From contig NZ_FOIJ01000011.1 of NCBI RefSeq assembly GCF_900111745.1, forward strand, positions 1 to 64,000: 64,000 nucleotides of DNA, given 5' to 3'. The translations under genes and the position numbers were made by a program. Under the pieces are notes generated by a model. It was not told the origin of the DNA, searched no databases, and was given only the letters and a program-made list of their open reading frames with translations. Position 1 is the first letter of the stretch, and every line of letters begins with the position of its first letter. Origin of the DNA: Stigmatella erecta (lineage in GTDB: Bacteria > Myxococcota > Myxococcia > Myxococcales > Myxococcaceae). Shown piece after piece: positions 48,348 to 64,000 of this stretch.

Positions 48348-49502
48348 TCAGTAGAGCAGCCCGTCAATGGGCTGCACCGGCGGGGGCAGCTCCGTCTCCC
48401 CCAGGGACTGGCGCAGGTTGATCTCGATGGTGCGCGAGAGCGCCGTCATCGGCGTGTCGCTGAAGCTGTTCTCGAACGGGGTCTCCACGTCGTGCCCCAC
48501 CGCGTCCATCGCGATGAACATGAACGCGATGATGGCGGTGACGGGAGGGGTGAGCCACCCCAGGTCGCTCACCACCCCCAGCGGCAGCATCGCCAGGTAA
48601 GCCCGCACCATGGCCCGGGGCAGGATGTCGTACTGCCGGGGCAGGGGGGTGTTCTTGATGCGCTCGCACGCGCCGAGGATGTTCGTCAGCTCATTGAGGG
48701 TGTTGTTCAGCGCCACCAGCAGGAACACCTTCTCCTCCCCATGGAGCTGGCCAAAGAGCAGCCGCAGGCGCGTTCCAATCCAGAGCAGGATCGCCGCGGG
48801 CACGTTGTGCTCGTCGCGCAGGGCCTCGAGCACCGAGGGCCGGAAGAAGGGAGCAATTTCTGGAAACGGATCCTGGCGCCGCAGGTGGCAGCGCAGCGCG
48901 TTCACGAAGCCCATCTGCGCATACACCAGCTCCCGCGCCTCATCGGTGATGCCCTCGAACAGGCCGGTGATGACGCCGCGGGAAGTCCCCGGCGCCTCGT
49001 TCGGCATCTCCAGGGACACGAGCCGCGCCGGCAGCGAGTCCGGGGGATAGGCCTCGTACGCCTTGCCGAGCCGGTCCCGGACGGCGCCATCGCTCGTCAC
49101 GGACCAGAAGGAGAGCCGGGAGGTCGACGAGGGCTCTTTCGCCGTCTGCATCAGGCGCGGGGTCTTTTCAGCCCCCTCCGTCCCCCCTTGGAGCGTCCGG
49201 TGAATGGGGGCCGGCAGGAACGTGAGCACTTGGCGGGCGAACGAGCGCGAGGTATTCACCAACCCCCCCCACAGCGTGCGGGCTTCCCACCATCGGTCGT
49301 AGGCGGAGTTGTTGCGAAAGGCCAGCAGGACCCCCAGCGCGGCGGCGAGCACGGTCACGGGGAGCGCGGGAACCGCCAGCCAGGTGGCGCCCAACACCTC
49401 ATAGGCGGCGGCAATGCCCAGGGCGAGCAGCACATGCAGCGCGACTGGCCGGCCCGTGTATCGGATCACGATACGCCAGGACAGCATCCGTCCAACGATC
49501 AT
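48348..49502 (-). CDS. Bestrophin family anion channel
   Basis: 384 residues from ATG 49502, AAGGA about 9 nt upstream. Bestrophin/RFP-TM layout: first membrane helices IAAAYEVLGATWLAVPALPV and VLAAALGVLLAFRNNSAYDRWWEAR, where the AFRNNSAYDRWWEAR signature is strongly conserved in bacterial bestrophins (YneE type). Later helices FLLVALNNTLNELTNILGACERI and YLAMLPLGVVSDLGWLTPPVTAIIAF. An insertion of about 75 residues after the second helix (AEKTPRLMQTAKEP...) is unusual. Expected to form a pentameric cation or anion channel in the inner membrane. Divergent from the SDR gene. Confidence 0.88.
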   Translation of the reverse strand: MIVGRMLSWRIVIRYTGRPVALHVLLALGIAAAYEVLGATWLAVPALPVTVLAAALGVLLAFRNNSAYDRWWEARTLWGGLVNTSRSFARQVLTFLPAPIHRTLQGGTEGAEKTPRLMQTAKEPSSTSRLSFWSVTSDGAVRDRLGKAYEAYPPDSLPARLVSLEMPNEAPGTSRGVITGLFEGITDEARELVYAQMGFVNALRCHLRRQDPFPEIAPFFRPSVLEALRDEHNVPAAILLWIGTRLRLLFGQLHGEEKVFLLVALNNTLNELTNILGACERIKNTPLPRQYDILPRAMVRAYLAMLPLGVVSDLGWLTPPVTAIIAFMFIAMDAVGHDVETPFENSFSDTPMTALSRTIEINLRQSLGETELPPPVQPIDGLLY

Positions 49503-49620
49503 CTCGAGTGTTCCTTCACGGGTTGAGCGGGCTTGCCATGTAACATGCCCTGCAACCCTCAGGACCTTCCCCTGTTCCGGACGATGTCCGGGAATGAGCA
49601 GCCGCTCCAAGGATCTCCCC

Positions 49621-50382
49621 ATGCACACCCTTCACGGATGGACAGCCCTCGTCACCGGGGCCAGCTCGGGTATCGGCGAAGCCTGTGCCCTCTCCTTGTC
49701 CCAGGCAGGCGCACGCCTCGTCCTGGTGGGCCGGCGCGAAGACCGGTTGCGGACACTGGCCTCGAAGCTCGCGGTGCCCGCCCACCCGCTCGTGCTGGAC
49801 GTGCGCTCGCGCCCCGAGGTCGAGGCCGCCCTGGCCTCCCTGCCGGCGGAGTTCGCCGCCGTGGACCTCCTCGTCAACAACGCGGGCCTGGCCCTGGGCA
49901 CGGACGCCGCGCACGAGGCCTCCCTCGATGACTGGGAGACGATGATCGACACCAACTGCAAGGGGCTCGTCTACCTCACGCACGCCCTGCTCCCCGGCAT
50001 GGTGCGGCGCAACCGCGGCCACATCGTCAACCTGGGCTCGGTGGCCGCCACCTACCCGTACCCCGGCGGCAACATCTACGGCGCCACCAAGGCCTTCCTG
50101 CACCAGTTCTCGCAGAACCTGAAGGCGGACCTCGTGGGCACGCGCGTGCGGGTCACCGACGTGCAGCCGGGCATGGTGGAAACGGAGTTCTCGCAGGTGC
50201 GGTTCCGGGGTGACGCCCAGCGCGCCAGCAAGCTCTACGAGGGCATGGAGCCCCTCACGGCGGCCGACATCGCGGACGTGGTGCAGTGGTGTGTCACCCG
50301 GCCCGCCCACGTGAACATCAACGCCGTCGAGCTCATGCCCGCGGACCAGGCCTTCGGGCCCTTCGCCGTCAAGCGGCGCTGA
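49621..50382 (+). CDS. Short-chain dehydrogenase/reductase (YdfG-like)
   Basis: 253 residues from ATG 49621 with AAGGA about 9 nt before. Classical [28 protein letters not shown], catalytic Ser in [20 protein letters not shown], and YGATK with the catalytic Tyr and Lys. C-terminal [18 protein letters not shown] matches YdfG-type (L-allo-threonine / 3-hydroxy acid dehydrogenase) proteins. It may be housekeeping, or reduce the cyclitol ketone of the neighbouring cluster. It is convergent with the cyclase gene and overlaps it by 14 nt tail to tail, so it lies on the edge of the cluster. Confidence 0.88.
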
Positions 50383-51574
50383 CGGGCACCGCGGACAGCG
50401 GGCCCTCGCGCCCGCGCTGGGCGCGCTCCGCCATGCGGCGGATGGCTCGCCCCAGCGCCTCGCGGGGGACATCCTCCAGCCCGTGCAGGAACATCCCCTC
50501 GCCGATGCGGGCGGGAATCACCAGGTTGACGCGGTGCCCCCGGTGCACGTTCACCTCCATCAGCGCCTGCCACATCGCATCCACCGAGCAGAGCGAGGCG
50601 TCGAACACCGGCAGCCCCACCACCTCCAGCAGCGAGAGGATCCGCTCGAACTCGGCCTGCGCGAGGATGCCCAGCTCGTTGCTCAGGCAGGCCGACAGCG
50701 CCATGTCCATGGCCACCGCCTCCCCGTGGGCATGGGCATAGCCGCTCGCCGTCTCCAGGCTCATGCTGAAGGTGTGCCCGAAGTCGACCAGGCGCTCGAG
50801 GTTCAGCTCGAACAGGTTGGGCTGCAGCTCTTCGATCATCCGGACCATGGCGCCCACCACCGCCTCCTGCGGCAGGGGGTGCTCCAGGCGCCGGTTCAGG
50901 GGCGGCAGGAAGTGGCGCTCCAGGGCGGCGAAGATCTCCGAATCACACACCAGCCCCATCTTGATGATCTCCGCCAGCCCGCAGCGCAGCTCGCGGGGCG
51001 GCAGGGTGGACAGGAACCCCCGGTCGTTGAGGGTCGCGTACGCGGGGTAGTACGTGCCGATGAGGTTCTTCGAACCGGCCAGGTTCACCCCCGTCTTCAC
51101 CCCCACGGCCACGTCCACCTGGCCCACCAGCGTGGTGGGCACCTTGATGTAGCGGATGCCCCGCCGGTAGATGGACGCGGCGAAGCCTACCGTGTCCAGG
51201 ACGATGCCGCCGCCGATGGCGACCAAGAGCCCGTGACGGTCCAGGCTGAAGGACTTGGCGGCCTCGCAGAGGCGCAGCACGCTCTCGATCGACTTGTTCG
51301 ACTCCGAGGTGCTCAGCACCAGGAAGCGGTACTGCTCCGGCGCGAAGTGGGCGCGGAAGTACTGGCGGATGCGCTCCCCATGCAGCCGGTCCACGGAGGG
51401 GCTGATGCACACCAGCATGCGCGCGTCGCGGCACAGCCCGGGCAGCAGCGTGCTGCCCGGCTCGAAGAGCCCGTCCTCGTTGTGCACGCCGTAGCCGAAG
51501 TCCGCCTGCGCGGCGACCTGCAGCGTGGTGCCCAGAACGCTCGTACCGCCACCCACCACCTTGATATGCGCCAT
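50369..51574 (-). CDS. Sedoheptulose-7-phosphate cyclase (2-epi-valiolone or 2-epi-5-epi-valiolone synthase)
   Basis: 401 residues from ATG 51574 (TTG 51589 overlaps the previous stop). A sugar phosphate cyclase of the DHQ-synthase superfamily: NAD loop [60 protein letters not shown], then zinc ligands in [11 protein letters not shown] (Glu), DFGHTFSM (His) and [11 protein letters not shown] (His). The KTGVN and KNLIGTYYP segments are those of the C7-cyclitol branch (EEVS/EVS), not of DHQ synthase. It converts sedoheptulose 7-phosphate to a C7 cyclitol, the first step to aminocyclitols. A 2-epi-valiolone synthase was reported from Stigmatella aurantiaca; I infer that this may be an orthologue, which sequence inspection cannot settle. 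Last gene of the leftward arm. Confidence 0.92.
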
Positions 51575-51585
51575 GATGTCGTCAC

Positions 51586-52317
51586 TCAACCCGCGTAGTT
51601 CACTCGCCCATTTCGATAGATGCCCACGGAGGTCTGCTTTCGATCCAACGCGCCGTTGCGGAAGCGCATGTTGATCGACATGCGGTCCCGGCCCGAGGTG
51701 TTGTGGTTCACCTTATGGAACAGGGTGCAATCGGTGATGACCAGGTCGCCGGCCTTCGGGCACAGCTGCTTCTGGCCCGGCAAGTCGCCGTGGGGCTCGC
51801 CGGACGGCAGGCGCTTGTTCCCGTGGCTGCCCTCCACCACGTGCAGGGCGCCGGACTCCAGCGAGGTGTCGAACGGGTAGAGCAGGAAGTTGAACATCTG
51901 CCCGGCCCCCACGGTCTCCGGATCGATGTCCTGGTGCCAGGGGATGGCCTGCCCCTCCCCGGCCTTGTGGTACTGCACCAGCGAGGCGTGGAAGCGCCCG
52001 TCCTCGGGCAGCAGCTCGCGCACGATGTGGCGCAGGCGGGGGTGCTCGATGAGCGCCGCGAGGGTGGGCACGTGCTCGTGCCGGTCCACGTAGCAGTAGC
52101 TCGTGGACTGGTACTTCTTGAAGAAGTGCTCGGAGCCCTCGCGGGGCACCATGAGCGCTGGGTTGGAGATGAGCGCCAGCACCTCGGCCTGGAGCGCCGC
52201 CAGCTCGGCGCCGTGGACGAAGGACGGCAGGTGGATGTAGCCCTGCGCCTGGAAACGGGACTTGTCGAACAGCCAGCGTGTGTTGTCCACCGACGGGCTC
52301 TCCATGGGGCACTCCAT
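51586..52317 (-). CDS. PhyH-family 2-oxoglutarate/Fe(II) oxygenase
   Basis: 243 residues; ATG 52317, or ATG 52305 which has GGAG 6 nt upstream and may be the real start (239 residues). Phytanoyl-CoA dioxygenase family: iron ligands HxD in IPWHQDIDP and the second His in [21 protein letters not shown], whose Arg binds 2-oxoglutarate. [23 protein letters not shown] is the jelly-roll core. In natural-product clusters such enzymes hydroxylate, epoxidise or desaturate. It lies 11 nt upstream of the cyclase gene in the same operon, so a C7 cyclitol-derived substrate is likely. Possible parallel to the 2OG-dependent hydroxylation in validamycin (VldW). Confidence 0.9.
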
Positions 52318-52329
52318 GACGTTCGCCGG

Positions 52330-53613
52330 TCACGGCGAAGGGGATAGGGGTTTGATCACCGGGTCCACCTGGGACAGGGCGGAGAAGTAGGCCTGGACCG
52401 CGCGGTGGTCCTGAATCATCGGGTTCACCAGGCAGGCGCGCAGCACCCGCTGGGGCGAGCGCTCCAGGATGGCTCCCAGCAGCTCCCCCTCGGCTTGCTT
52501 CATCTGCTTGACGAACGTGAACTCGGGGAGGCGGGCCACGTGCTCCGGCGGCGCGAACGCCACGGGGCCCCCGCCGTCCATGCGCGCGTTGGTCTCGACG
52601 ACACACGTGCGGCAGCCCAGGCCAAACGGGTCCGGGACTCCCAGGTTGAGGATCAACGGGTCGCGGGTGAGCTGAAGCAGGTTCGAGAGCACGGGGGTGA
52701 CGATGAGATCGTACCAATCGCACCGCCGCGCGGCCAGCCGTTCCAGGAAGGGCTCCGGCGACAGGGCCTCCCGGGGCGTGTGTCTCACCTGGTCGGCCAG
52801 TTCCTGCTCCAGCGCATACAGGAACGAGGCCCGGTTGGGCTTCTGCCGCTGCCCTTCCCAGACCGCGTTCCGGTTGAAGATCAAGTCCCAGGCGGGAATG
52901 ACGATCGACTCGAAGGCCCGGTGGTACGCGGGCGCCAGGGCGCACGCATCGAGGCGCTCCTTGAGCTCCGAGAAGATGCTCCGGCCCGACAGCCGCACGT
53001 CATGGACGAAGCCGAAGTGGTTGACGCCAAAGTACTGAATGTCGACCGCCTCGCGCGGCTGCTGAAGCAGCCCGGCATACGCGGAGCGCAGGACCTCCGG
53101 GTAGTCACAGATGCCCACCACGGGCAGCCCGAACCGCTCCAGCATGTACTGGGTGACGATGCTGCACGGGTTGGTGAAGTTTACCAGGGTGTAGGGCCCG
53201 GTCTTGCCCCGGAGCGTCTCTAGGAAGGGCGTCAGCCCCACGACGGTCCGGATGGCGTTGCTGACCCCCACCATGCCCAGGGTCTCGTCGGCCACCAGCC
53301 CCTGGGCCAGGGCGATCTTCTCATCCAGGTCGCGGGCGGCCATGCCCCCGAAGCGGAGCTGGTTGAAGACGAGGCCGTACTCCCCATCCAGACAGGCCTC
53401 GAAGTCCGTGGTGAAGTCCGTCACGAGCGCCGAGGCGCGCGTCAGCTGCCCGCACATCCGCGCCACGGCCTCGAGCCGCTGCTGGTCGCGGCCGAACAGG
53501 GTGATGCGGCGCAGGTGCGAAGTCACCCCCGCGCGGTGCAGCGACTCCACCAGCAGCAGCGTGTAGAAGCTGCTGCCGCCCAGGATGAACAGGCTGGTCT
53601 GTGCGCCGCTCAC
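52330..53613 (-). CDS. GH4-like NAD-dependent sugar enzyme
   Basis: 427 residues from GTG 53613. Glycoside hydrolase family 4 fold: Rossmann start LFILGGSSFYTLLLVESL (the GGSxxYT motif binds NAD), then GVSNAIRT, the metal-binding Cys in FTNPCSIVTQYMLERF and the His in YFGVNHFGFV, and the tail ETNARMDGGGPVAFA. GH4 enzymes use NAD+ and a divalent metal to oxidise sugar C3, then eliminate at C1-C2; conserved Cys and His suggest the chemistry is retained. Family members include 6-phospho-glucosidases, alpha-glucosidases and alpha-glucuronidases. In this cluster it may dehydrogenate, epimerise or dehydrate a phosphorylated cyclitol, an inference from position only. Confidence 0.85.
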   Translation of the reverse strand: MSGAQTSLFILGGSSFYTLLLVESLHRAGVTSHLRRITLFGRDQQRLEAVARMCGQLTRASALVTDFTTDFEACLDGEYGLVFNQLRFGGMAARDLDEKIALAQGLVADETLGMVGVSNAIRTVVGLTPFLETLRGKTGPYTLVNFTNPCSIVTQYMLERFGLPVVGICDYPEVLRSAYAGLLQQPREAVDIQYFGVNHFGFVHDVRLSGRSIFSELKERLDACALAPAYHRAFESIVIPAWDLIFNRNAVWEGQRQKPNRASFLYALEQELADQVRHTPREALSPEPFLERLAARRCDWYDLIVTPVLSNLLQLTRDPLILNLGVPDPFGLGCRTCVVETNARMDGGGPVAFAPPEHVARLPEFTFVKQMKQAEGELLGAILERSPQRVLRACLVNPMIQDHRAVQAYFSALSQVDPVIKPLSPSP

Positions 53614-53632
53614 GGGGGTGCTCGCAGGGGCC

Positions 53633-54736
53633 TCAGCTCGTGGGGAGCTGATACTCCACGGCCTTGGCCCTCAGCTCCTGATACTTGAGGATGAGCTCAT
53701 CCTGCGTCTTCGTCTCGTCGCCAAAGAACAGGCCGTTCTCCTCGCGCAGGAGCGTGAAGTGCTCGCGCAGGGTGTTCACGGCGAACTCGGCCTTCTTGAG
53801 CGTGATGGGCGTGCAGGACTTGCCATGCAGGTCATCGAACAGGTCCAGCACGTTGGAGCGGAAGGACTCGATCAAGTACAGCTTGTGAAGACTGTCATTG
53901 CCGCGCAGGGCCTGCCGCCAGCGCTGGTTGATGGCCCCTTGCCATTGCAAGACGGGCTCGACGGCCTTCATGGCCTCCAGCCGCTGAAGCTTGTTCTCGT
54001 AGTGCTTCAGCGCGTATGTCTTTTCCTCGCGGTAGACGCCGAAGAGCCCCTGCGCATCCAGGCCGTGGGGGTTTCGCAGGAGGTGGTCGAAGAAGTTGCG
54101 CGTCTCGAACCGCTCCACGCCGTGAAACAACGGGGTCGCGAAGCCGTTGTTGTTGTAGTGCTGGCGCGGATCGAACCGGTACATGTACCCGAAGTCGAAC
54201 AGGAAGATCTTCCGGCCGTCGTCCAGGACATTGCCCGGGCAGAAGTCCCACTCGAACAGGCCGTGCAGCTCCAGGTTCACGATGGTGCTGAAGAGCTGAT
54301 CATACACCCGGCCATCGAAGCGCTGGAGCCGCTCCCCTTCGATCCAGGGCGAGAGGATGACCCCATCCAGGAAGGAGGCGTACTGGGTCTCGACGATGTG
54401 GGTGAACAGCGGGGCCGTCTCCGGGTTGCGCTGGAGCGCGGTGATGTCGCGGCGGCGCTGGACCTCGTTGAGAAATGATGTCTGGCCATCCACATTCTTC
54501 ACCAGACTCTCGGCCCGCTTGCGCTTGAGCGTCCAGTGGCGGCCCCCGGCCTGGAGCCGGTAGACATAGGCCGTCAATCCAGACTCGATTGCCTTGACCA
54601 CATACTCGCTGTGGGCCGTGGTGTGGGCCAATTGCTCCAGGGGCAGCGGCAGGGCGGACTTCTCGCCCACCTCGATTTGCTGGCCGCTTGCCTGGAACGC
54701 AAGCTGGGACTGTTGCCTCTCCTTTTCCAGACTCAT
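53633..54736 (-). CDS. Protein-kinase-fold phosphotransferase
   Basis: 367 residues. Kinase-like elements: HWTLKRKRAESL with the ATP-binding Lys, a hinge near ILSPWIEGERLQRFDG, a catalytic loop LFEWDFCPGNVLDDG (EWDFCPGN replaces HRDxxxxN) and DFG in IFLFDFGYMYRFD. The C-lobe is helical. It is thus a member of the kinase-like superfamily, close to small-molecule or protein kinases, not of the ROK or GHMP types known for cyclitol 7-kinases. Leads the leftward arm, divergent from the ABC exporter genes. Possible jobs: phosphorylating the cyclitol early in the pathway, or phosphorylating the finished product for self-protection. Confidence 0.78.
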   Translation of the reverse strand: MSLEKERQQSQLAFQASGQQIEVGEKSALPLPLEQLAHTTAHSEYVVKAIESGLTAYVYRLQAGGRHWTLKRKRAESLVKNVDGQTSFLNEVQRRRDITALQRNPETAPLFTHIVETQYASFLDGVILSPWIEGERLQRFDGRVYDQLFSTIVNLELHGLFEWDFCPGNVLDDGRKIFLFDFGYMYRFDPRQHYNNNGFATPLFHGVERFETRNFFDHLLRNPHGLDAQGLFGVYREEKTYALKHYENKLQRLEAMKAVEPVLQWQGAINQRWRQALRGNDSLHKLYLIESFRSNVLDLFDDLHGKSCTPITLKKAEFAVNTLREHFTLLREENGLFFGDETKTQDELILKYQELRAKAVEYQLPTS

Positions 54737-54798
54737 GGGGGCCTTCTACCGTAGATTTCCCAGGGTCGCCAGCCCTGCCCGGGCCCCCGGGACTTCCG

Positions 54799-54827
54799 TT
54801 GACACGGCATTTTGACCCACCTAAAAT
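54799..54827 (+). promoter_or_regulatory. Consensus sigma70 promoter of the exporter/biosynthesis operon
   Basis: TTGACA (54799-54804), 17-nt spacer, TAAAAT (54822-54827): nearly perfect sigma70 elements, rare in this GC-rich genome. Transcription would begin near 54834, 29 nt before GTG 54863, after which AAGGA gives the ribosome site. Confidence 0.78.
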
Positions 54828-54839
54828 CCAATGAATTGG
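54828..54839. promoter_or_regulatory. CCAAT-GA-ATTGG palindrome at the transcription start
   Basis: CCAAT (54828-54832) and ATTGG (54835-54839) form a perfect inverted repeat immediately after the -10 box, spanning the expected start site. A repressor bound here would block the strong promoter. No regulator gene is seen in the cluster within the window. Confidence 0.5.
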
Positions 54840-54862
54840 TGCCGTGCCGTAAGGATTAACCT

Positions 54863-56713
54863 GTGTCATTGCTGTCCATCCTCGAGCGTCATCGCCTGCT
54901 GGACAGCGAAGCCCTCGCCCACATCCGCCGGTTGCAGCGAGACAAGGGCTACCTGATCGAAGAAGCCCTGAAGGAGCTGGGGCCCGCGCACGCGGGGGCC
55001 GCCGAGAGCGCCGCGGCCCTGCTGGAGCGCGAGCGGCGCCGGGCGCTGAACGTGAAGGGGCTGCGCCGGGTCTTCTCCGAGCTGAGCCGGCACCGGGGCG
55101 CCGCGGCGCTGCTGTTCGTGTTGAGCGCGGGCAGCGCGGTCTTCAGCTTTCCCTTCGCGTTCGCCTGGTATCTGGGCACCGTGTTGCAACACCTGCGATA
55201 CAGCCATGATACCTCGTCGCTGTGGGTGTTGACGGCGGTGGCCGCCACCGTGCTGGTGACAGGAACGTTGCTTGAATTCCTGCTCAACACGTGGGCTGCG
55301 CGATGCAACTTCCACATCACCCAGGGGCTGGTGATGCGTTGCTGGGAGCGTTTGCTCCACATGCCCTATGTGCTCTACCGGCGCCAGGAGCAGGGGCGGC
55401 TGCTGAGCCACCTCACGGATGTGCTGGAAGGCTTGCAGAAACACCAGCTCTACACGTTGCGGAACCTGCTGCGCTCCCTGTGTCTCATCGGGGTCTCCGC
55501 CGTGGCGCTGCTCTCGTTTCACGTCGCGTTTGTGCTCATCGTCGTGCCGGCGGTGGTGCTGACGTGCGGGGTTCCCATCCTGCTCTCGGACCGGGCCACC
55601 CCCTCCCTGCGGCAAGAGCCGAAGCTCATGGGGCGGCTCAGCGGCTTTCTCAAGGCCGCGTTCGCCTCCCACTGGCTGCTGCGCTTCCAGGGCGCGGAGG
55701 CGGTGGAGCGCAGGCTCGCCCACATCGCCGCCGGGCATTTCAACAACCAAGCCCGGAAATGGCTGACCTGGAACCTGGCGTACAACAGCCGCGTCACCCT
55801 GACGCTGCTCAGCTTCTTGTCGGTGCTGTGGATTGGCGGCTCGCTGTATCTGGCGGGCACCATCAGCCTGGGGGACCTGGTCACCGCCTACGTGCTCGTC
55901 ACCATGGTCACCCCGAAGCTGGACGACGTGTACCGCATCTACGTGTACGGCCAGTCCATGCAGGCCAACTACGACATCCTCGACGAGCTGATGAGCGCGC
56001 CGGTCCCGGAGGCCCCGGGCCCGCGAGAGGGGGAAGCCCCGCGCATCACCTCCTTGAGGCTGGAAGGGGTGAGCTTCCGCTACCGGCCCGGGGAGCCCGA
56101 CGTGCTGCGGGACGTCTCCCTGGAGCTGCGCCGGGGGCAGCACTGCGCCCTCCAGGGGGAGAGCGGCGCGGGCAAGAGCACACTCGTGGATGTGCTCCTG
56201 GGCCTGCTCCACCCCGACACGGGCCGCCTGCTCGTGAATGGCCAGCCCCTCCACCCCGCGGAGCTGCCGGGCTTCTGGCGCCGGGTGGCGCTGCACGACC
56301 AGAACAACTTCGTCTTCCTGGACCGCAGCGCCGCGGCCAACGCCACCCCCGACCGGGGGGATGCCGGGCCCACCGAGGAGTGGCAGCGGCTGGCGGACCG
56401 GCTGGGCCTGCCCCTCTGGGGCCACAAGCGCCCCGCCGAGCTGTCGGGCGGGGAGCGGCAGCGCATCTGCCTGCTCCGGACCCTGGCCACCCCCGCGGAC
56501 CTCTACATCTTCGACGAGCCCACCTCGGCCCTGGACGAGGCCAACGCGCGGCTGGTGCTGGACAGCATCCTGGCCCTGCGGGACGCCCTCGTCCTCGTCA
56601 TCAGCCACTCCCCGGAGGTCCTCCAGCGCTTCGAGCAGGTCCTGAGCGTCGAGCAGGGCCGCGTCACGCGGAGCCCGGCCGCCCCGGGGCATGAGCAGGA
56701 GCCGGCGGCGTGA
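54863..56713 (+). CDS. ABC exporter, fused permease and ATPase (first half-transporter)
   Basis: 616 residues from GTG 54863, AAGGA 9 nt upstream. The first 70 residues are a helical cytoplasmic extension (LLDSEALAHIRRLQRDKGYLIEEAL) that looks like a short MshEN-type regulatory element. Six transmembrane helices follow (for example LLFVLSAGSAVFSFPFAFAW, LWVLTAVAATVLVTGTLLEF). The nucleotide-binding domain starts about 394: Walker A GESGAGKSTLV, signature LSGGERQRICLLR, Walker B DLYIFDEPTS, H-loop VISHSP. No C39 peptidase. It overlaps the second half-transporter by 4 nt, so the two probably pair as a heterodimer that exports the cluster product across the inner membrane. Confidence 0.92.
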   Translation: MSLLSILERHRLLDSEALAHIRRLQRDKGYLIEEALKELGPAHAGAAESAAALLERERRRALNVKGLRRVFSELSRHRGAAALLFVLSAGSAVFSFPFAFAWYLGTVLQHLRYSHDTSSLWVLTAVAATVLVTGTLLEFLLNTWAARCNFHITQGLVMRCWERLLHMPYVLYRRQEQGRLLSHLTDVLEGLQKHQLYTLRNLLRSLCLIGVSAVALLSFHVAFVLIVVPAVVLTCGVPILLSDRATPSLRQEPKLMGRLSGFLKAAFASHWLLRFQGAEAVERRLAHIAAGHFNNQARKWLTWNLAYNSRVTLTLLSFLSVLWIGGSLYLAGTISLGDLVTAYVLVTMVTPKLDDVYRIYVYGQSMQANYDILDELMSAPVPEAPGPREGEAPRITSLRLEGVSFRYRPGEPDVLRDVSLELRRGQHCALQGESGAGKSTLVDVLLGLLHPDTGRLLVNGQPLHPAELPGFWRRVALHDQNNFVFLDRSAAANATPDRGDAGPTEEWQRLADRLGLPLWGHKRPAELSGGERQRICLLRTLATPADLYIFDEPTSALDEANARLVLDSILALRDALVLVISHSPEVLQRFEQVLSVEQGRVTRSPAAPGHEQEPAA

Positions 56714-58344
56714 AGGCCCTGCTGCGCTACCTGCGCACCGGCTACGGGGCCTACTGGGCGAGCCTGCTGGGGCTGATCGCCTTCGTCTCCCTGTTCTCGT
56801 TCGTGATTCCCAGCACCTTCAAGGTGGTGGTCGACTCCTTGCTGCCGTGGGGCAGCACCCGCCAGTTCCACCTGTTCTGCCTCTTCGTCCTGCTGCTGGT
56901 GCTCAACCGCACGGTGCTCAATGCGTTGCAGGACTACCTGTTCCTGCGCCTGCGGCAGCTCATCGAGAAAGGCCTGCTGAAGCGCTACTTCGAGTCCGTC
57001 ATCACCCTGCCCATCCCGCGCCTGGCCACGCTGGGGGAAGGCGAGCTGGTCAATCGCATCTCGTTGATCCTCACCAACTTCCAGATGCTGATGCCCGAGT
57101 TCGTCTACTACTGCGCCTACGCCCTGTGTGTGTCCCTGGCGGTGATGGTTGTGCTGTACCTGGTGAACCCGGTCTTCCTGCTCATCAGCCTGGGGTTCCT
57201 CCTCCTCCACGCCTTCAACTTCGCCCTGCACCACACCGCCAGCCGCCGCTTCTCGACGGCCTACGTCACCACCAAAGGACAGCTGGCCAGCACGTACGTG
57301 GACATCTTCAAGGGGCGCAAGCTCATCACCCTGACGGGCACCGAGCAGACGATCCTCCAGTCCCTGGAGCAGGACAACCGGGCCCTCCACCAGGCGGCGT
57401 TCCGGCGCGACCTGGCCGAGAGCGGCCAGGCCCTGTGGCAGCAGATGCTCCACGGGGCCACCTACCTGGCGCTGGTGTCCCTGGGCGCGCTGGCCATGTT
57501 CGAGGGGCGCCTGACGGCGGGAGACCTGGCCCTGAGCCTGCTGCTGGTGGGCTTCGCCTACGAGCCGGTCTACCGGCTGAGCCGGCTGTCCAAGGCGCTG
57601 GCGGAGGCGGATGCCCAGTTCGCCCGGGTGCTGCCCGTGCTGGCGGAGTCCTCCCGCCGCGCCCTCAAGACCGTGAGCCCTGGGCGCCTGGAGCGGCTGG
57701 AGCTGAAGGGCGTGACGTTCGAGCGGGCGGGCCGGGAGCTGCTGCGCTCGGTGGACTGCGCGTTCCTGCCAGGCCATGTCTATGTCATCCAGGGGCCGAG
57801 CGGCGGCGGGAAGACCACCCTCTTCCACCTGCTCTCGGGGCTCGTGCGGCCTACCCAGGGCCAGGTGCTGTGGAATGGCCGGGATGTGAGCACGCTGTCA
57901 CCGGCGGAGCTGTCCCAGTGGATGACGTACTGCCCCCAGCAGAGCCTGCTGCTGGATGGCACCGTGGAGGAGAACATCACCCTCTTCGACAGCACGCCCC
58001 ACCGGGCACGTCTGGTGGAAGCCTTGCACCGGTCTACCGCTGGCCTCTTCGTGCGTGCGGATCAAGCCGCGTCCTGGAAGGTCGAGAACGAGGGCACGAA
58101 CTTCTCGGGCGGGCAGAAGCAGCGGCTGCACCTGGCACGCGCGTGGTACCATGCGGCACCCGTGATGCTGTTCGATGAGCCCACCGCCAGCCTGGACACA
58201 GACACCGAGGAACTCTTCTTTCAACGCCTCTCCGAAGCCGCCACGGACCGCATCGTCTTGATCATCTCGCACCGCCCTGGGGCGCATCGCCACGCCAGCC
58301 AGGTGTTGCAGCTGGCGCAGGGCACCCTGCGGCGCCTGGAGTAG
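56710..58344 (+). CDS. ABC exporter, fused permease and ATPase (second half-transporter)
   Basis: 544 residues; start GTG 56710 overlaps the previous TGA. Six transmembrane helices (LLGLIAFVSLFSFVIPSTF, FHLFCLFVLLLVLNRTVL and others), then an NBD with Walker A IQGPSGGGKTTLFHLLS (about 363), Q-loop YCPQQSLLLDG, signature NFSGGQKQRLHLAR (about 465), Walker B VMLFDEPTASLD and an H-loop IISHRPG. All catalytic residues are intact, unlike some heterodimeric exporters where one site is degenerate. Second gene of the rightward arm; stop followed 3 nt later by the adaptor gene. Confidence 0.92.
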   Translation: MKALLRYLRTGYGAYWASLLGLIAFVSLFSFVIPSTFKVVVDSLLPWGSTRQFHLFCLFVLLLVLNRTVLNALQDYLFLRLRQLIEKGLLKRYFESVITLPIPRLATLGEGELVNRISLILTNFQMLMPEFVYYCAYALCVSLAVMVVLYLVNPVFLLISLGFLLLHAFNFALHHTASRRFSTAYVTTKGQLASTYVDIFKGRKLITLTGTEQTILQSLEQDNRALHQAAFRRDLAESGQALWQQMLHGATYLALVSLGALAMFEGRLTAGDLALSLLLVGFAYEPVYRLSRLSKALAEADAQFARVLPVLAESSRRALKTVSPGRLERLELKGVTFERAGRELLRSVDCAFLPGHVYVIQGPSGGGKTTLFHLLSGLVRPTQGQVLWNGRDVSTLSPAELSQWMTYCPQQSLLLDGTVEENITLFDSTPHRARLVEALHRSTAGLFVRADQAASWKVENEGTNFSGGQKQRLHLARAWYHAAPVMLFDEPTASLDTDTEELFFQRLSEAATDRIVLIISHRPGAHRHASQVLQLAQGTLRRLE

Positions 58345-58347
58345 ACC

Positions 58348-59031
58348 GTGCTCGAGTTCCTCTACCGCCTGTACGAACGCGACGTGGGCTCCGGGGACTC
58401 CCGCGGCACCTTGTTGCTGGCCTTCGGCGTGGTGGCCTCCGGCATCGGCCTGCTGGCCACGCTGGCCACCCGGCCCTTGCATGAGGTCTACACGGCGGAC
58501 GGGCGCGTCGAGCCGGGCCGGCTGGAACGGTTCCACAGCGAGGCGGACGGCCTCATCCAGCAGAACCGCCTCCAGCTGGGCACGGTCTATGCGCCGGGCG
58601 AGCCGGTGTTCACGGCGGCCCCGGCGGGCAGCGGGGGCACGCCCCGCGTCTATGCCGCCCCCTGCCGGTGCGTGGTGATCCGCTCGGACCTGCTCCACCG
58701 CACCACGGGGCCCGTGCGGGCCGGAGAGCTGGTGGCGGAGTTCGCGGACACCACGCGCTGGAAGGTGCGCTTTCCCCTGGAGGGTCGCTGGCGGGACGGC
58801 ATCGCGCCCGGGGCCCGGGTCCACGTGCTCGACGGAGACCGGGCGTCGCTGGTGGGCTCGGTTGAACGCGTGTATTCCATTCCCGGGGAGGCGTCCCACG
58901 GCGAGGCGTCCGTCCCGGTCCCGGGCGGCCAGACGCTGGCGCCCGGCCACCGGGTGACGGTGAAGGTGGAGATGCCACCGGTGTCCCTGTGGCGGCTCTT
59001 CGTGGAGAGCCTGGGGCGGCCTGCCCGATGA
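58348..59031 (+). CDS. Short HlyD-like adaptor protein of the exporter
   Basis: 227 residues from GTG 58348. One N-terminal membrane helix (LLLAFGVVASGIGLLATLA), then a periplasmic beta-barrel/lipoyl-like region (HEVYTADGRVEPGRLERF, VYAAPCRCVVIRSDLL, PVRAGELVAEFADTTRWKVRFPL, PGHRVTVKVEMPPVSLW). It resembles bacteriocin/HlyD membrane fusion proteins shortened by loss of the long coiled-coil hairpin, so it could not reach a TolC channel in the classical way. Co-translated position after both ABC genes marks it as part of the export machine. A distant alternative is a stand-alone periplasmic chaperone. Confidence 0.72.
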   Translation: MLEFLYRLYERDVGSGDSRGTLLLAFGVVASGIGLLATLATRPLHEVYTADGRVEPGRLERFHSEADGLIQQNRLQLGTVYAPGEPVFTAAPAGSGGTPRVYAAPCRCVVIRSDLLHRTTGPVRAGELVAEFADTTRWKVRFPLEGRWRDGIAPGARVHVLDGDRASLVGSVERVYSIPGEASHGEASVPVPGGQTLAPGHRVTVKVEMPPVSLWRLFVESLGRPAR

Positions 59032-59086
59032 AACCCACGCATCCCTTGCCGGGTGCGAGTCTTGAGCGAGCTGAACGGGAGCGACA

Positions 59087-59452
59087 ATGCGCACGAACAT
59101 GCTGCAGGAACTGATGAAGCAGGAGCATGGGTGTCATGGAGGCGAGGGATTCATCCATGTCTTCCGCGCCTTCACGCGCAAGGACTCCCCCGTCCAGGTG
59201 GACTTCATCGACTTCGTCATCATCCCCAGCGGGGCCACCATTGGCCGCCACCGGCATGGCGACAACCGCGAGTGGTACGTCATCATCAACGGCCACTGCG
59301 AGATGCTGTTCGGCAACGAGCGCGTTCAGGTCAAGCCGTGGGACGTGCTGGTGAATCCGCCCTCGGGCGAGCACGCCCTGTACAACAACTCCGGCCAGGA
59401 CGTGACGCTGGTGGTGTTCCAGGTGAGCAAGGACGGCGACAGTGAGCACTGA
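59087..59452 (+). CDS. Cupin-domain protein
   Basis: 121 residues. GGGAG before ATG 59087. Complete single cupin: motif 1 GRHRHGDNREWYVIING (HxH...E metal ligands) and motif 2 WDVLVNPPSGEHALYNNSG with the fourth ligand His. Binds a metal and may isomerise, epimerise or act on the polar product, as in sugar isomerase-type cupins. Overlaps the next gene (aminotransferase GTG at 59442) by 11 nt, so translated together with it and probably working on the same intermediate. Confidence 0.88.
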   Translation: MRTNMLQELMKQEHGCHGGEGFIHVFRAFTRKDSPVQVDFIDFVIIPSGATIGRHRHGDNREWYVIINGHCEMLFGNERVQVKPWDVLVNPPSGEHALYNNSGQDVTLVVFQVSKDGDSEH

Positions 59453-60734
59453 GGACATCCTCCAGACGGAGCGCCGCTACCTCAACCAGGGCATCTCCGA
59501 GGAGGCGGCGCTGGGCGGCGTGGCCTTCACCCACGGCCAGGGCACGCTGCTGTTCGACGCGGAAGGCAAGCAGTACCTGGACATGTCCGCGGGCATCTTC
59601 ACCCAGTCCACCGGGCATGGGCACCCGCATGTGACTCGCAGCATGCACCGCCAGCTGGACCGGCTGTGGAACGTGCACGACTTTCCCACCGACGCGCGCG
59701 CCGCCCTCTGCGAGAAGCTGGCGCAGCACTTCCCCGAGCACCTGCAGACCTTCGCCTTCTTCACCACGGGCGCCGAGGCCATCGAGGCCGCCATCCGGGC
59801 CGTGTTCGGCGCCGTACCGCCGCAGCGCCAGCGGCTGGCGGCCCTGCGCTACGGCTTCCATGGCAAGACCCAGGGGGCCCGGATGCTGGTGCACTGGGAC
59901 GTGGGCACCACGTCCTTCTCCGGCAACTCGGTGCTGGGCTATCCGGGGTACTGCTACCGCTGCCCGCTGGGCCGCACCTACCCGAGCTGCGAGATGCAGT
60001 GCGCCCAGCTCGTGAACAAGCACATCAGCAGCAAGAAGAACATCGCGGCCCTGTTCTTCGAGCCCATCCAGGGCGCGGCGGGCGTCATCGTTCCCCCGCT
60101 GGAGTACTGGCCGATGATTCAGGAGGAGTGCCGCAAGAACGGGGTGCTGCTCGTCGCGGATGAAATCGTCACGGGCGGGGGCAGGACGGGCGAGTTCCTC
60201 GCGTGCTCCCTCTTCAACGTCCAGCCGGACATCGTGGCCGCCGCCAAGGGGCTCTCCTCGGGCTTTCCTTTCTCCATGCTGGCGGGGCGCAAGAGCCTGC
60301 TGAACGAGGGGGAGTTCGCCCAGGGCGGCGCGGCCTCCTCCACCTTCGGCGGCAACCCCCTGAGCATGACGGCGGCCCGGGCCACCCTGGAGGTGCTGGA
60401 GTCCGAGCAGCTCCTGGACCGGGTGAAGCGGCTGGGCGCCCGGCTCCGGGAGGGGCTGCTGGCGCTCCAGGCGGACTTCCCCTTCGTCGGGGACGCGCGG
60501 GGCGTGGGGCTGCTCTATGCCCTGGAGTTCGTGACGACGCCCCAGGGCAAGGAGCCGGACGCGGCCAAGGCCCGGTTCTTCTTCCGGCGCTGCATGGAGC
60601 TGGGGGTGAAGACGTGTGTGGGGGGCCACATCATCCGCCTGGGGCCGCCCTTCACCGTGAGCGAGCAGGAGCTGGACCAGGCCCTGGGCGTGTTCGGCCA
60701 GGTGCTCAAGCAAATGCATGACCAGAAGGTCTGA
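59442..60734 (+). CDS. Class III PLP-dependent aminotransferase
   Basis: 430 residues from GTG 59442. Fold-type I, class III (GABA/ornithine family): FFTTGAEAIEAAIRA binds phosphate, LLVADEIVTGGGRTGEF holds the pyridine Asp, and IVAAAKGLSSGFP carries the Schiff-base Lys (about residue 268). A Cys cluster GYCYRCPLGRTYPSCEMQC (CxxC, then two more Cys) recalls the [2Fe-2S] ligand region of GABA aminotransferase. In aminocyclitol pathways such an enzyme (for example AcbV-like class III in acarbose) converts a cyclitol ketone to an amine. Embedded in the operon between cupin and kinase genes, it should introduce the nitrogen of the product. Confidence 0.92.
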   Translation: MSTEDILQTERRYLNQGISEEAALGGVAFTHGQGTLLFDAEGKQYLDMSAGIFTQSTGHGHPHVTRSMHRQLDRLWNVHDFPTDARAALCEKLAQHFPEHLQTFAFFTTGAEAIEAAIRAVFGAVPPQRQRLAALRYGFHGKTQGARMLVHWDVGTTSFSGNSVLGYPGYCYRCPLGRTYPSCEMQCAQLVNKHISSKKNIAALFFEPIQGAAGVIVPPLEYWPMIQEECRKNGVLLVADEIVTGGGRTGEFLACSLFNVQPDIVAAAKGLSSGFPFSMLAGRKSLLNEGEFAQGGAASSTFGGNPLSMTAARATLEVLESEQLLDRVKRLGARLREGLLALQADFPFVGDARGVGLLYALEFVTTPQGKEPDAAKARFFFRRCMELGVKTCVGGHIIRLGPPFTVSEQELDQALGVFGQVLKQMHDQKV

Positions 60735-60752
60735 GCTTCCGAGGCGCGCGCC

Positions 60753-62264
60753 ATGACACGTCAGGTCTCCCGTCCCCAACTCGAGGCGAACCGCTCCCGG
60801 TTGCTCCAATCCTTCCAGGGCCAGCGCTGGCTGAGTGAGCCCAGCGGCCGGGACGGGGGGCTCGACATCGAGGACTTCGTGCAGCTGCCCGGAGAGGCCA
60901 GCCCCTTCGTGCTCACGCTCCTGCGCGTCCACGGCTCGGGCAACCGCTACTTCGTGCCCCTGCGCGTCACCCTCTCCGCCGGGCAGGAGGCGCAGCTGAG
61001 CGATGCGTCCTACGACGCGGGGTTCATCACCGCGCTGCTGCAGTGCATGCGCGAGCAGCGGACGCTCACCACCGAGAAGCAGCGCGCCCTCCATTGCCGG
61101 GCCCAGGCGCCCTCGCCGGGGGCGCCCGCCCTGGAGGTCACCCCCTTCAAGGTGGACATGTCGTCCAACTGCCTCAGCGAGCTGCGCCACGGGGAGGAGC
61201 GCTGGGTCTGCAAGCTCTACAAGCGCCTGAGCACCGACGGCGGCAATGAGCTCCGGGCCTTGCAGCTGCTGGCGGGCAGCGGCCTGGCCCCGGAGCTGCT
61301 GGGCTCCATCACCTACGAGGATGGCGCCGGGCTCCAGGCGCTGGGGGCCCTGACGGCGCTGGTCGAGGGCGAGCCCATCTATCTGCCGCTCAGCCGCCAC
61401 ATCAAAGCCCTCATCGCGCAGGTGGTGGCGGCCCCGGGAGAGGTCAGCCCCCTCACCCGGAACGGGCTCGCGGAGCTCGAGCCGCTGTGCCGCAGGCTCG
61501 GCGAGCAGCTGCTGCTCTTCCACCAGCGCCTGAACCAGGGCGCTTCGACGGGCGAGCCTGCCCTCTTCCAGCTCGCCCCCTACCTCGACACCCACCGGGC
61601 CCGCTGGGAGCGGCTCCATGCCGCCGTGGAGCAGGACGCGTCCCTGCCCGCCCCCCTGCGCGCCTCAGTCCTGCGGCAACTCCAGCGGGTGTCAAACGCC
61701 CTGCTGGCCCCTGGGAAGCTGCGCCACCTGCCCCCGCTGCCCGCCACCATCGCCCACGGGGACCTGCACCTCTCGCACATCCTCGTCGCCGCTTCGGAGG
61801 GCGGGGCGCCCCGGCTCTCCATCCTCGATGTCTCCCCGCGCAGCCTTGACGCCCAGGCCCCCGCCTTCCTCACGCAGACCGTGTTGCAGGATCTGCTCAG
61901 CCTGCTGCGCGCCATCCAGTACTTCGCCTTCGACGAGATTCTGGATGGCATCAAGGACGTGCTGGGCAACACCCAGCTGGAGGCCACCCGGCTCGTGCTG
62001 GAGAATCCCGCCAGCCTGCCGCCCTCCTGCCAGGCCCAGCTCACGGTGCTCTCGGATTGGAGCAAGGGGCTCTTCGGCTGCATCGAGCGCGCGTACCTGA
62101 GGGCCTTCGAGCGCGGCACCGCGCTGGACATCCATCCCAGCCATGCGCGGCTGTTCTACGTCTGCCGGCTGCTCCAGGAGCTGGAATACAACTACAGCTA
62201 CAACCGCGGCTTCTTCAAGTACTGCGACTTCTACTACCTGCTCCACCTGGAAGGGCTCGAATAG
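60753..62264 (+). CDS. Maltokinase-like sugar/cyclitol kinase
   Basis: 503 residues; GAGG 8 nt before ATG 60753. The length and N-terminal cap domain (about 1-130) match maltokinase/Pep2 and the related glucosamine kinases. ATP site: RWVCKLYKRLSTDGGNEL with the Lys; catalytic loop IAHGDLHLSHILVA (HGDLH); metal-binding Asp in RLSILDVSPRSLD (LDVSP where LDFE is usual). The family phosphorylates maltose or glucosamine at C1 or C6. In this cluster the substrate could be the cyclitol or aminocyclitol. The substitution in the DFE-like motif is odd and may mean altered metal binding or specificity. Follows the aminotransferase by 18 nt, precedes the glycosyltransferase by 13 nt. Confidence 0.85.
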   Translation: MTRQVSRPQLEANRSRLLQSFQGQRWLSEPSGRDGGLDIEDFVQLPGEASPFVLTLLRVHGSGNRYFVPLRVTLSAGQEAQLSDASYDAGFITALLQCMREQRTLTTEKQRALHCRAQAPSPGAPALEVTPFKVDMSSNCLSELRHGEERWVCKLYKRLSTDGGNELRALQLLAGSGLAPELLGSITYEDGAGLQALGALTALVEGEPIYLPLSRHIKALIAQVVAAPGEVSPLTRNGLAELEPLCRRLGEQLLLFHQRLNQGASTGEPALFQLAPYLDTHRARWERLHAAVEQDASLPAPLRASVLRQLQRVSNALLAPGKLRHLPPLPATIAHGDLHLSHILVAASEGGAPRLSILDVSPRSLDAQAPAFLTQTVLQDLLSLLRAIQYFAFDEILDGIKDVLGNTQLEATRLVLENPASLPPSCQAQLTVLSDWSKGLFGCIERAYLRAFERGTALDIHPSHARLFYVCRLLQELEYNYSYNRGFFKYCDFYYLLHLEGLE

Positions 62265-62277
62265 AGCGACGACGTCA

Positions 62278-64000
62278 TGCACATCCTCGAGTGCTATCTG
62301 GAATGCGGTGGTTTTGATTACAGCTTCATCAAGGGCGGCATCTCCGTCTACACCTGGAACCTGGCCAGCGCCTTCCGGGACGAGGGGCACCAGGTCTCCG
62401 TGCTCACCGCCGCGCACGGCCGCCTCGACTACCTCAAGAAGAACTACCCCGTGGAGGAGCTGCCCTACCGGCGGCGCTACACGCTGCCCCTCCAGCTGGA
62501 TCCGCGCGTGTGGCGCGGCTTCGAGCCCCGGCAGGAGCTGGAGCTGGAGACCCGGGCCTACCGGATCCGCCACCAGGGCGTGGACCTGTACTTCCTGTGC
62601 AATGACATGCTGGACCGGTACAGCGACACCTTCTACCCGCCCTACGAGAGCAAGGGAAAGGACCTGGGCTTCTTCAAGCCGCTGGTGTTCCAGATGGACA
62701 TGGTGCTCTTCATCCGCGAGTTCTTCGCGGACGAGAAGCTGCTCATCCACGCCCACGAGCCCTTCTATCAGTACCTGCTGCCGCTCGCCTTCCGGGACGA
62801 CGCCAACAAGCGCATGGTGAGCACCGTGCAGAGCAACATGCCGGTCAACAAGAAGGTGTACCGGCCCGAGCTGCAGGCGCAGCTGGACTTCCTGGGCATC
62901 CGCGCCGACCTGGCGCCCTTCGACGATGCGCCGCAGACCGATGCCTTCGGCCGCTGCCTGAATGGGTACCTGCCCGAGACCCACCTGCACTACCCCTACC
63001 CGGACGACTACATCGCCTTCTACCCGTTGCTGCTCGAGTACAGCGACGCCGTCGACTTCCTGTCCGAGGGGCACCTGGCGTTCTACCGGAACTTCGAGGG
63101 CACGGCCTTCAAGGCCATGTTCCGGCGGCTGAAGGTGGCCGAAGTCACCCAGCGCAACGCGCAGAAGATGTTCGTGGGCTGGTGCGCCATCAGCGGCCGC
63201 TGGCACCAGACGGACTTCAGCCAGTACCGGCGGGAGGACGTGCTGCGCGGGCTGGGGCTGCGGCCCGAGCTGCCCACCTTCTTCCACAACGCCCGCTACG
63301 CGGTGCACCACAAGGGGCAGAACGAGCTGGTGCGCGCGGCGCGCAAGGTGCTGGAGACGGGAGCACCGTGCAACTTCATCCTCCGCTGCCTGTCGGGCAA
63401 CGGCATCCCGGATCCGGCCTACCACGCCCTGGCGAAGGACTTCCCGGAGCAGGTCCGCCTGGAGTGGCACAACCGGCCCGAGGAGGACCTCGTGGCCATG
63501 GCGGCGGCGGCGGACTTCGGCCTCTTCCCCTCGAAGTTCGAGATGGACACCTTCCTCATCGCCCAGGGCGAGGCCATGCTCGCCGGCTGCGTCCCCATCG
63601 CCAGCCGGCAGCTCGGCATGAAGCACTGGCGGCACAGCCGCGCGTTCTGCGAGGCGCCCAGCCAGGTGACGGGGCTGGATGTGATTCGCTCCTTCCTGGC
63701 CAATGACGAGACGCTGGTGGACTCACTGGTCCGCGCGCTGCAAGAGGCGCTGGCGCTGTACCAGAACCGTCCCCGCTACGAGCAGCTCTCCCAGCGGGCC
63801 CGGGCCCGGGCCCAGGAGTTCACCTGGAAGATGAGCGCGCAGGCCCACCTCAAGGTCATGGAGCCGCTCTGGAAGGCGCCCCGGACGGTGGGCACCGCCG
63901 CCCCCGGCTCCCGGCCCGCGCCGGAGCCCGCGAAGGACTGGAAGGCCGCCATCAGCACCGAGGGCGAGCTGCTCGGCCTGCGCCGGCGCGAGCCCAGCTC
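62278..64000 (+). CDS. Glycogen-synthase-like glycosyltransferase (partial, runs off the right edge)
   Basis: 574 codons visible from ATG 62278 with no stop, so the gene continues past 64000. GT-B fold of GT5/GT4 type: the N-terminal loop FIKGGISVYTWNLASAF resembles the KVGGLGDV loop of glycogen synthases, VSVLTAAHGRL is the next strand, and the C-domain has FHNARYAVHHKGQNELVRAA and the donor motif LFPSKFEMDTFLIAQGEAMLAGCVP with the retaining-type E-x7-E. The residues after about 530 look like a linker (Pro/Ala), so a further domain may follow. In acarbose and validamycin pathways GT-B enzymes join cyclitols or sugars; here it likely glycosylates the C7 aminocyclitol or forms the pseudo-glycosidic link. 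Last visible gene of the rightward operon. Confidence 0.88.

Follow-up and report, generated by a model that had tools for sequence, protein, structure and literature searches.

Do the genes that crowd the right end of this stretch of Stigmatella erecta DNA form a single pathway, and what kind of compound might that pathway make? The stretch (the window, 64,000 nucleotides in full) is the first 64 kb of a contig of 266,924 bases in a genome of 9.2 Mb. An initial annotation had grouped a valiolone-type sedoheptulose-7-phosphate cyclase with a PhyH oxygenase, a GH4-like enzyme, a class III aminotransferase, a cupin, two kinase-fold proteins, a glycosyltransferase (GT) and an ATP-binding cassette (ABC) export pair. 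A Pfam scan of 18 proteins in and around the cluster supports this grouping for the cyclase, the PhyH and GH4-like enzymes, the aminotransferase, the cupin, the maltokinase-like kinase, the glycosyltransferase and the ABC pair. The gene set was real but incomplete: it spans from the cyclase (50369) to contig position 67293, past the window end, and its right end probably lies at 68891, with an amylomaltase included. The set comprises about fifteen genes and is intact in four Stigmatella-type bacteria. Judged by sequence likeness, the cluster, divergent and probably co-regulated, likely directs the synthesis of an acarbose-family C7N pseudo-oligosaccharide.

The grouping is more than chance, since all 14 genes from the cyclase to a PfkB kinase are collinear in three other genomes, where they are 74–100% identical. 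The genus sample comprised seven genomes (our own and six others), and the genome searches scored a few first-look candidates per genome. The cyclase was found in four of the seven (88–100% identity), the carriers being our own genome, G003, G004 and G005. In the non-carriers G001, G002 and G006, the cyclase, the GT, the GH4-like enzyme and the kinase-like protein were unmatched at E value cut-offs of 1e-20, 1e-30, 1e-10 and 1e-5, respectively, the other cluster genes not being searched there one by one. Of 144 relatives, four carry the GT, as do four of 195 genomes in a sample of the phylum. The PhyH protein is 92–97% identical in the three other carriers. A cyclase without conserved neighbours would have spoken against the initial annotation, and the neighbourhood comparison gave the opposite picture. 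Together with the valiolone-type cyclase and the acarbose-type homologues described below, it upholds the idea of one conserved gene set with the logic of pseudo-oligosaccharide biosynthesis.

Neighbouring genes are tightly packed, with overlaps of 4–11 bases at several junctions, and they form two divergent sets. The minus strand carries the DHQ_synthase-fold cyclase (AcbC/GacC counterpart; 50369..51589; PF01761, 8e-37), the PhyH-type Fe(II)/2-oxoglutarate oxygenase (51586..52317; PF05721, 2.4e-19; HxD and a distal H recognised by eye), the GH4-like NAD/metal enzyme (52330..53613; PF02056, 1.4e-18) and a weak kinase-fold protein (53633..54736). The plus-strand set runs from the exporter to PfkB. 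It begins with two ABC exporter subunits (54863..56713 and 56710..58344, each with PF00005 and PF00664) and an HlyD-type adaptor (58348..59031; PF13437, 4.4e-10), followed by the cupin (59087..59452; PF07883, 3e-10), the class III aminotransferase (GacV/AcbV counterpart; 59442..60734; PF00202, 1.3e-85), the maltokinase/APH-like kinase at the gacU position (60753..62264; PF01636, 4.7e-09) and the glycosyltransferase, placed in the AcbS/AcbI family by sequence likeness (62277..64250, the window part ending at 64000). Past the window end, the annotation continues on the plus strand with a GlgC-like nucleotidyltransferase (64243-65325), a ROK kinase (65339-66355) and the PfkB kinase (66352-67293), to which a GH77 amylomaltase (67266-68891) is convergent. 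Close copies of this amylomaltase occur only in G003 and G005 (93% and 84%), and the best copies in G004 and the three non-carriers are 34–35% identical; therefore, the amylomaltase probably belongs to the cluster and was lost in G004.

The closest parallels to this gene set are found in actinobacteria. The related loci are the best 80 of 331, reduced to 78 by removing two S. alfalfae contigs (L055 and L056) that duplicated the matches of a third; up to 10 kb of flanking sequence was read per locus, and the counts are lower bounds on presence. The ROK kinase was seen in 65 of the 78, the cupin, which regularly accompanies this cyclase clade, in 53, the nucleotidyltransferase in 36, the GT in 35, the maltokinase-like kinase in 26, the aminotransferase in 15 and a GH4-like gene in 4; PhyH and the kinase-like gene were found in none of these loci outside the genus. 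In the 33 loci that have a GT and a cyclase at 44% identity or more, a cut set after the data were seen, the cupin, the ROK kinase and the nucleotidyltransferase are present in 33/33, GH77 in 27, the maltokinase-like kinase in 25, PfkB in 20, the aminotransferase in 6 and GH4 in 0.

The Streptomyces relatives include acarbose-type clusters. Along L061 and its extension L150, S. caeruleatus carries, in this order, an aminotransferase (54%), an ABC exporter, a maltokinase-like kinase, a GT, a nucleotidyltransferase, PfkB, a fusion of a second GT with an HAD phosphatase, GH77, the cyclase, a cupin and a ROK kinase, and a second NTP-transferase (RmlA-like by eye) lies divergent before the aminotransferase. 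S. alfalfae (L149/L054) resembles it, with PfkB elsewhere. In a passage of PMC13240717, the core genes for acarbose are given as gac A, V, W, X, Y, U, S, R, K, I, Q, C, J, M, O, a series not stated there as gene order, and the arrangement in S. caeruleatus matches it closely. The same source discusses the acarbose biosynthetic gene cluster (BGC) of Streptomyces sp. JHA26, whose locus here (L069) carries a CBM25/alpha-amylase. The locus of S. coelicoflavus NBRC 15399 (L093) carries an alpha-amylase-inhibitor-domain protein; the acarviostatin strain in the passage is S. coelicoflavus ZG0656, not NBRC 15399 (PMC13240717). Loci of the S. griseofuscus type (L063 and similar) run cyclase, cupin, aminotransferase, exporter, maltokinase-like kinase, GT, nucleotidyltransferase and ROK kinase, followed by a PfkB/GMC oxidoreductase pair. 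No second GT was seen in the further 20 kb read there, and no amylomaltase match; a related locus (L081/L151) has a second GT. In gene content, the S. griseofuscus-type set was judged to come closest to the Stigmatella cluster.

With gac letters assigned by position and family (the cupin left unlettered), the Stigmatella cluster and the gac-type acarbose/acarviostatin/trestatin clusters of Streptomyces have in common a C-type cyclase, an M-type ROK kinase, an R-type nucleotidyltransferase, an AcbS/I-type GT, a U-type maltokinase-like kinase, a V-type aminotransferase, a K-type PfkB kinase and a Q-type amylomaltase, as well as the cupin that Streptomyces has beside the cyclase. The aminotransferase is 52–54% identical to those of the Streptomyces and Kitasatospora clusters, PfkB 25–32% identical to its actinobacterial counterparts and the amylomaltase 28–32%. 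The second GT-HAD fusion (I), the RmlA-like A and the ABC-2 exporter were not found in the Stigmatella cluster, nor were an amylase or an amylase-inhibitor peptide among the neighbours scanned; conversely, GH4, PhyH, an ABC/HlyD exporter of type I and the protein with weak kinase likeness are additions. The view that the enzyme set is not the actinobacterial one thus holds for these additions and fails for most enzymes, including the maltokinase-like kinase, whose homologue stands at gacU. The acb cluster of Actinoplanes sp. SE50/110 has the same logic of cyclase, 7-kinase, 1-kinase, NDP-cyclitol and pseudoglycosyl transfer, as outlined in a passage of PMC9200736. For AcbL, AcbN, AcbO, AcbJ and AcbI, no Stigmatella counterpart was identified, the Actinoplanes proteins not being compared directly. 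The validamycin (Val/Vld) cluster has the valiolone-type cyclase, the ROK kinase and the GlgC-like transferase in common with Stigmatella; its pseudoglycosyltransferase is a GT20 enzyme (VldE/ValL), whose Stigmatella homologue sits in a separate locus.

The call of a valiolone-type cyclase is sustained at both fingerprint sites examined. Among solved structures, ValA (4p53, E value 1.2e-73) is the best match, and in the aligned Stigmatella sequences (4/4, our own included) the metal ligands and the equivalents of D281 and H360 resemble those of 2-epi-5-epi-valiolone synthase (EEVS). D281 and H360, in numbering attributed to Kean 2014, are the two residues that distinguish EEVS from desmethyl-4-deoxygadusol synthase (DDGS). 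The DDGS signature (A and T at two sites) is absent from the Stigmatella cyclases, which have D and H instead. Nor do they resemble 3-dehydroquinate synthase (DHQS): there is no N at the D281 site, no grouping with DHQS, and a score of 224.7 bits against an aroB cut-off of 305, so that 3-dehydroquinate, the product that would have undone the initial annotation, is not indicated at the level of sequence. Two sites that discriminate EEVS from DDGS, within a full fingerprint of 14 residues, are described in a passage of PMC4426668. In the tree, from which rows L145 and L146 (wrong extracted frames) and the AroB row of L003 were left out, the window cyclase lies outside the ValA/DDGS branch (99/97). 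It shares an assembly of weak support (82/86) with enzymes of Firmicutes, archaea, cyanobacteria, Eremiobacterota, Geminicoccaceae and the Streptomyces type; no sister of the Stigmatella cyclases is resolved inside this assembly. Other cyclases, about 40% identical to that of the window, occur in two neighbouring genera (L040-L046, L052); no other cluster gene accompanies them except a 30% ROK match in L043.

The glycosyltransferase is glycogen-synthase-like (GT5-like). With tblastn, it gave 504–587 bits (42–55% identity) against the first GT of gac-like actinobacterial clusters and 374–444 bits (38–44%) against the second, AcbS and AcbI themselves not being compared. Unpaired AcbS/AcbI homologues in BGCs with acbC and acbR, in a set of 242 sequences, are predicted in a passage of PMC9200736 to be pseudoglycosyltransferases for other pseudo-oligosaccharides. 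By this likeness, the Stigmatella enzyme is probably a pseudoglycosyltransferase. An AcbI partner was not found, each carrier genome giving one GT match at E ≤ 1e-30 (6–8 first-look candidates scored). Genes for dTDP-4-amino-4,6-dideoxyglucose (A/B) were absent from the 18 proteins scanned, the rest of the genome not being searched for them. Since neither AcbI nor a dTDP-sugar gene was found in the cluster, acarbose itself is not the expected product.

A pathway can be proposed in which every step is drawn from homologues. The cyclase would convert sedoheptulose 7-phosphate to 2-epi-5-epi-valiolone, which the ROK kinase (AcbM role) would phosphorylate at position 7. Epimerisation, redox and dehydration, the work of AcbO, AcbL and AcbN in Actinoplanes, would fall to the cupin and the GH4-like NAD enzyme and yield valienol 7-phosphate. 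C1 would be phosphorylated by the maltokinase-like enzyme (AcbU role), and the GlgC-like enzyme (AcbR role) would form the NDP-cyclitol, which the single GT5-like enzyme (AcbS role) would join through a C-N bond to an amino acceptor supplied by the aminotransferase. The amylomaltase would add glucose units, PhyH would hydroxylate the product, the PfkB kinase (AcbK role) would phosphorylate it for self-protection, and the ABC/HlyD system would export it. AcbM, AcbU, AcbR, AcbS and AcbK have characterised roles, AcbU being the valienol-7-phosphate 1-kinase (PMC9200736, in part). The four carriers thus probably make a sugar-mimicking compound.

The GH4-like enzyme passes the cut-offs for both PF02056 and PF11975 and keeps the Cys and Asn-His motifs, which we take to be the metal site. 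All four Stigmatella sequences (4/4) have Trp where a distant myxobacterial homologue (L047) and the solved 6-phospho-beta-glucosidase 1s6y have Tyr, in the column that we assume to hold the catalytic Tyr. The enzyme may perform redox chemistry or dehydration of the cyclitol, by analogy with AcbL and AcbN, or may form a keto-sugar for the aminotransferase. AcbL dehydrates and AcbN reduces, according to a passage of PMC7081202. Related cyclases have a distant GH4-like gene in their vicinity in 4 of the 78 loci and in two distant myxobacteria; these loci (Eremiobacterota, Geminicoccaceae, an unclassified bacterium and the distant myxobacteria) usually have a cupin and a ROK kinase as well, their GH4-like proteins are about 28–32% identical to that of Stigmatella, and they gave no AcbS-type GT match. 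In the two distant myxobacteria (L047, 5513-11388, and L048), a GH4-like gene, a Gfo/Idh-type oxidoreductase, a cyclase and a cupin are adjacent to one another, and L047 also has a ROK gene close by. A cupin-cyclase-ROK trio is seen in Firmicutes and Thermoplasmatota (L053, L057, L058, L067, L097, L099), with a distant class III aminotransferase match in 5/6. For the cupin itself, a function as cyclitol epimerase/isomerase is proposed. It is possible, at somewhat less than even chance, that the cluster represents a new pseudo-oligosaccharide branch, in which a GH4-type enzyme without the glycosidase Tyr makes an unsaturated cyclitol or keto-sugar, an unpaired member of the AcbS family forms the C-N bond and PhyH decorates the product.

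The two kinase-fold proteins fared differently. The maltokinase-like protein has its PF01636 match and a TreS_Cterm maltokinase signal (1.6e-07) far below the family cut-off; one Streptomyces protein at the U position is without a Pfam match at E ≤ 0.001. Against solved structures, a single match, a ribokinase at E 0.071, was returned, and it supports nothing. The second protein (53633..54736) has no Pfam match at E ≤ 0.01 and only weak APH/ABC1-kinase signals: APH scores E 0.022 in the window member and appears in 7/8 family members, at best 3.9e-5. A profile search against solved structures gave weak protein-kinase matches (best E 0.054), and the structure prediction reached a mean predicted local distance difference test score (pLDDT) of only 39.8, too low to be used. 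This gene also stands alone in four genomes of a neighbouring genus (L141-L144; 71–75% identical), and therefore its part in the pathway is doubtful; it may have a role of its own.

The sole sigma-70-like match in 49600-64000 is a promoter-like TTGACA-17-TAAAAT (54799..54827, plus strand), where shuffling gives 0.6 expected. It lies in the 126-base intergenic stretch between the divergent gene sets, and both hexamers are unchanged in 4/4 carrier genomes. Among the flanking genes, a bestrophin gene has no match in the three non-carriers. A short-chain dehydrogenase/reductase gene (49414-50382) was set aside as a cluster member for its inconsistent position: it is directly beside the cyclase in G003, some 1.7 kb from it in G004 and outside the stretch taken from G005. 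A PhoX-family gene (C11:68806-69951), not counted in the cluster, borders the amylomaltase and adjoins PfkB in G004, which is without the amylomaltase.

A second cyclase in the same genome bears on where the pathway begins. It lies at C7:191872-192936, within a second aminocyclitol locus at C7:191872-196326 (L050), and like matches occur in 4/7 genus genomes. In G005 (L049, 5231-12308), it lies among genes for a xylose-isomerase-like TIM barrel, an RmlD-like protein, a VldE-type GT20, a class III aminotransferase and a GlgC-like transferase. The GT20 of the second locus matches VldE at E 1.7e-161; such a gene occurs in 5/144 genomes, always near such a cyclase, and its carriers are the four genus genomes that carry the window cluster and one genome of another genus. 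Amycolatopsis belongs to the family of Actinosynnema, and among 297 sampled genomes of that family, three matched the second cyclase at E ≤ 1e-70 (42–43% identity), with no A. mirum genome among those identified. A 2-epi-valiolone synthase (EVS) is reportedly known from S. aurantiaca, as the initial annotation also noted, and G005, apparently S. aurantiaca DW4/3-1, carries the cluster with an 89–90% identical cyclase. If the window cyclase were this enzyme, the pathway would start from 2-epi-valiolone; we give this little credence. According to a figure legend of PMC5133447, confirmed EVS enzymes form a clade that one would take to be DHQS, and it is the second cyclase that groups with DHQS (100/100), whereas the window cyclase groups with EEVS/DDGS relatives. 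For this reason, the published S. aurantiaca enzyme is more likely the second, DHQS-like cyclase.

The nature of the product could also be read differently. A single glycogen-synthase-like GT might make an ordinary O-glycosidic bond, with ADP-glucose supplied by the GlgC-like enzyme, a member of a sugar nucleotidyltransferase family, and the product would then be a glycosylated C7-aminocyclitol. The GT tree, which does not include AcbS, lends itself to this, placing the Stigmatella enzymes apart from the first and the second GTs of paired clusters alike; their attachment to a long branch (L111) may be false, as the tree program warns. This reading is nevertheless unlikely: the pair of GT and nucleotidyltransferase recurs with cyclase, ROK kinase and cupin in 33/33 selected relatives, and the PMC9200736 passage takes unpaired AcbS/AcbI homologues with acbC and acbR for pseudoglycosyltransferases. 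Less probable still is that the cyclase product feeds a carbasugar or cyclitol of an exported cell-surface glycan rather than a diffusible inhibitor. The exporter is a type-I, MsbA/CydCD-like ABC pair with an HlyD adaptor, whereas Streptomyces clusters have ABC-2-type components, and the amylomaltase and a glycogen-synthase-like enzyme are nearby; yet no polymerase, flippase or initiating transferase is among the 18 annotated proteins, and the aminotransferase and PfkB point to small-molecule logic.

An acarbose-family pseudo-oligosaccharide is preferred, and several observations weigh against it. The cyclase clade is separate from ValA, and we know of no assayed member. The Stigmatella cyclases (four sequences) alone have Met where Pro stands in DDGS and in the other valiolone-type rows, and R occupies the H360 site in all eight Streptomyces, Kitasatospora and Nocardiopsis rows and two archaeal rows of the assembly; because of these residues, we only infer 2-epi-5-epi-valiolone as the product. 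The tree position of the GT counts here as well, and the enzyme may therefore not be an AcbS orthologue proper. The maltokinase-like protein is only 26–31% identical to its Streptomyces counterparts, over most of its length, and no HAD phosphatase (AcbJ role) is among the 18 proteins scanned. Additionally, the exporter type, GH4 and PhyH are unlike those of acarbose clusters, and AcbQ is reported as dispensable for acarbose in a passage of PMC9200736.

A full-text search, covering few subscription papers, found no paper linking acarbose with Stigmatella, sedoheptulose 7-phosphate cyclase with myxobacteria or epi-valiolone synthase with Stigmatella aurantiaca. This agrees with the earlier statement that no myxobacterial product had been assigned, and such silence is weak support for novelty. 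A 2019 survey reports only three saccharide BGCs, a count that takes in aminoglycoside and aminocyclitol subtypes, among the sequenced myxobacteria covered, with no sequence similarities seen (PMC6616573), and a word search of the main text of a 2023 paper on myxobacterial BGCs gave none of six related terms (PMC10435759).

This myxobacterial cluster is real, conserved and of the acarbose family; its genes for redox chemistry, tailoring and export have been swapped. It offers uncharacterised enzymes, namely the GH4-like enzyme, the cupin, the PhyH oxygenase and the unpaired glycosyltransferase, and two kinds of pseudoglycosyltransferase, one of the AcbS family and one of the VldE type at a separate locus, may act in parallel within a single myxobacterium. 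Compounds of the acarbose type inhibit the enzymes that digest starch and are of medical importance, acarbose being a diabetes drug. Why bacteria make them is left open in a passage of PMC9200736. An intact cluster in fruiting Gram-negative bacteria, apparently including S. aurantiaca DW4/3-1, would make this question testable outside the actinobacteria.

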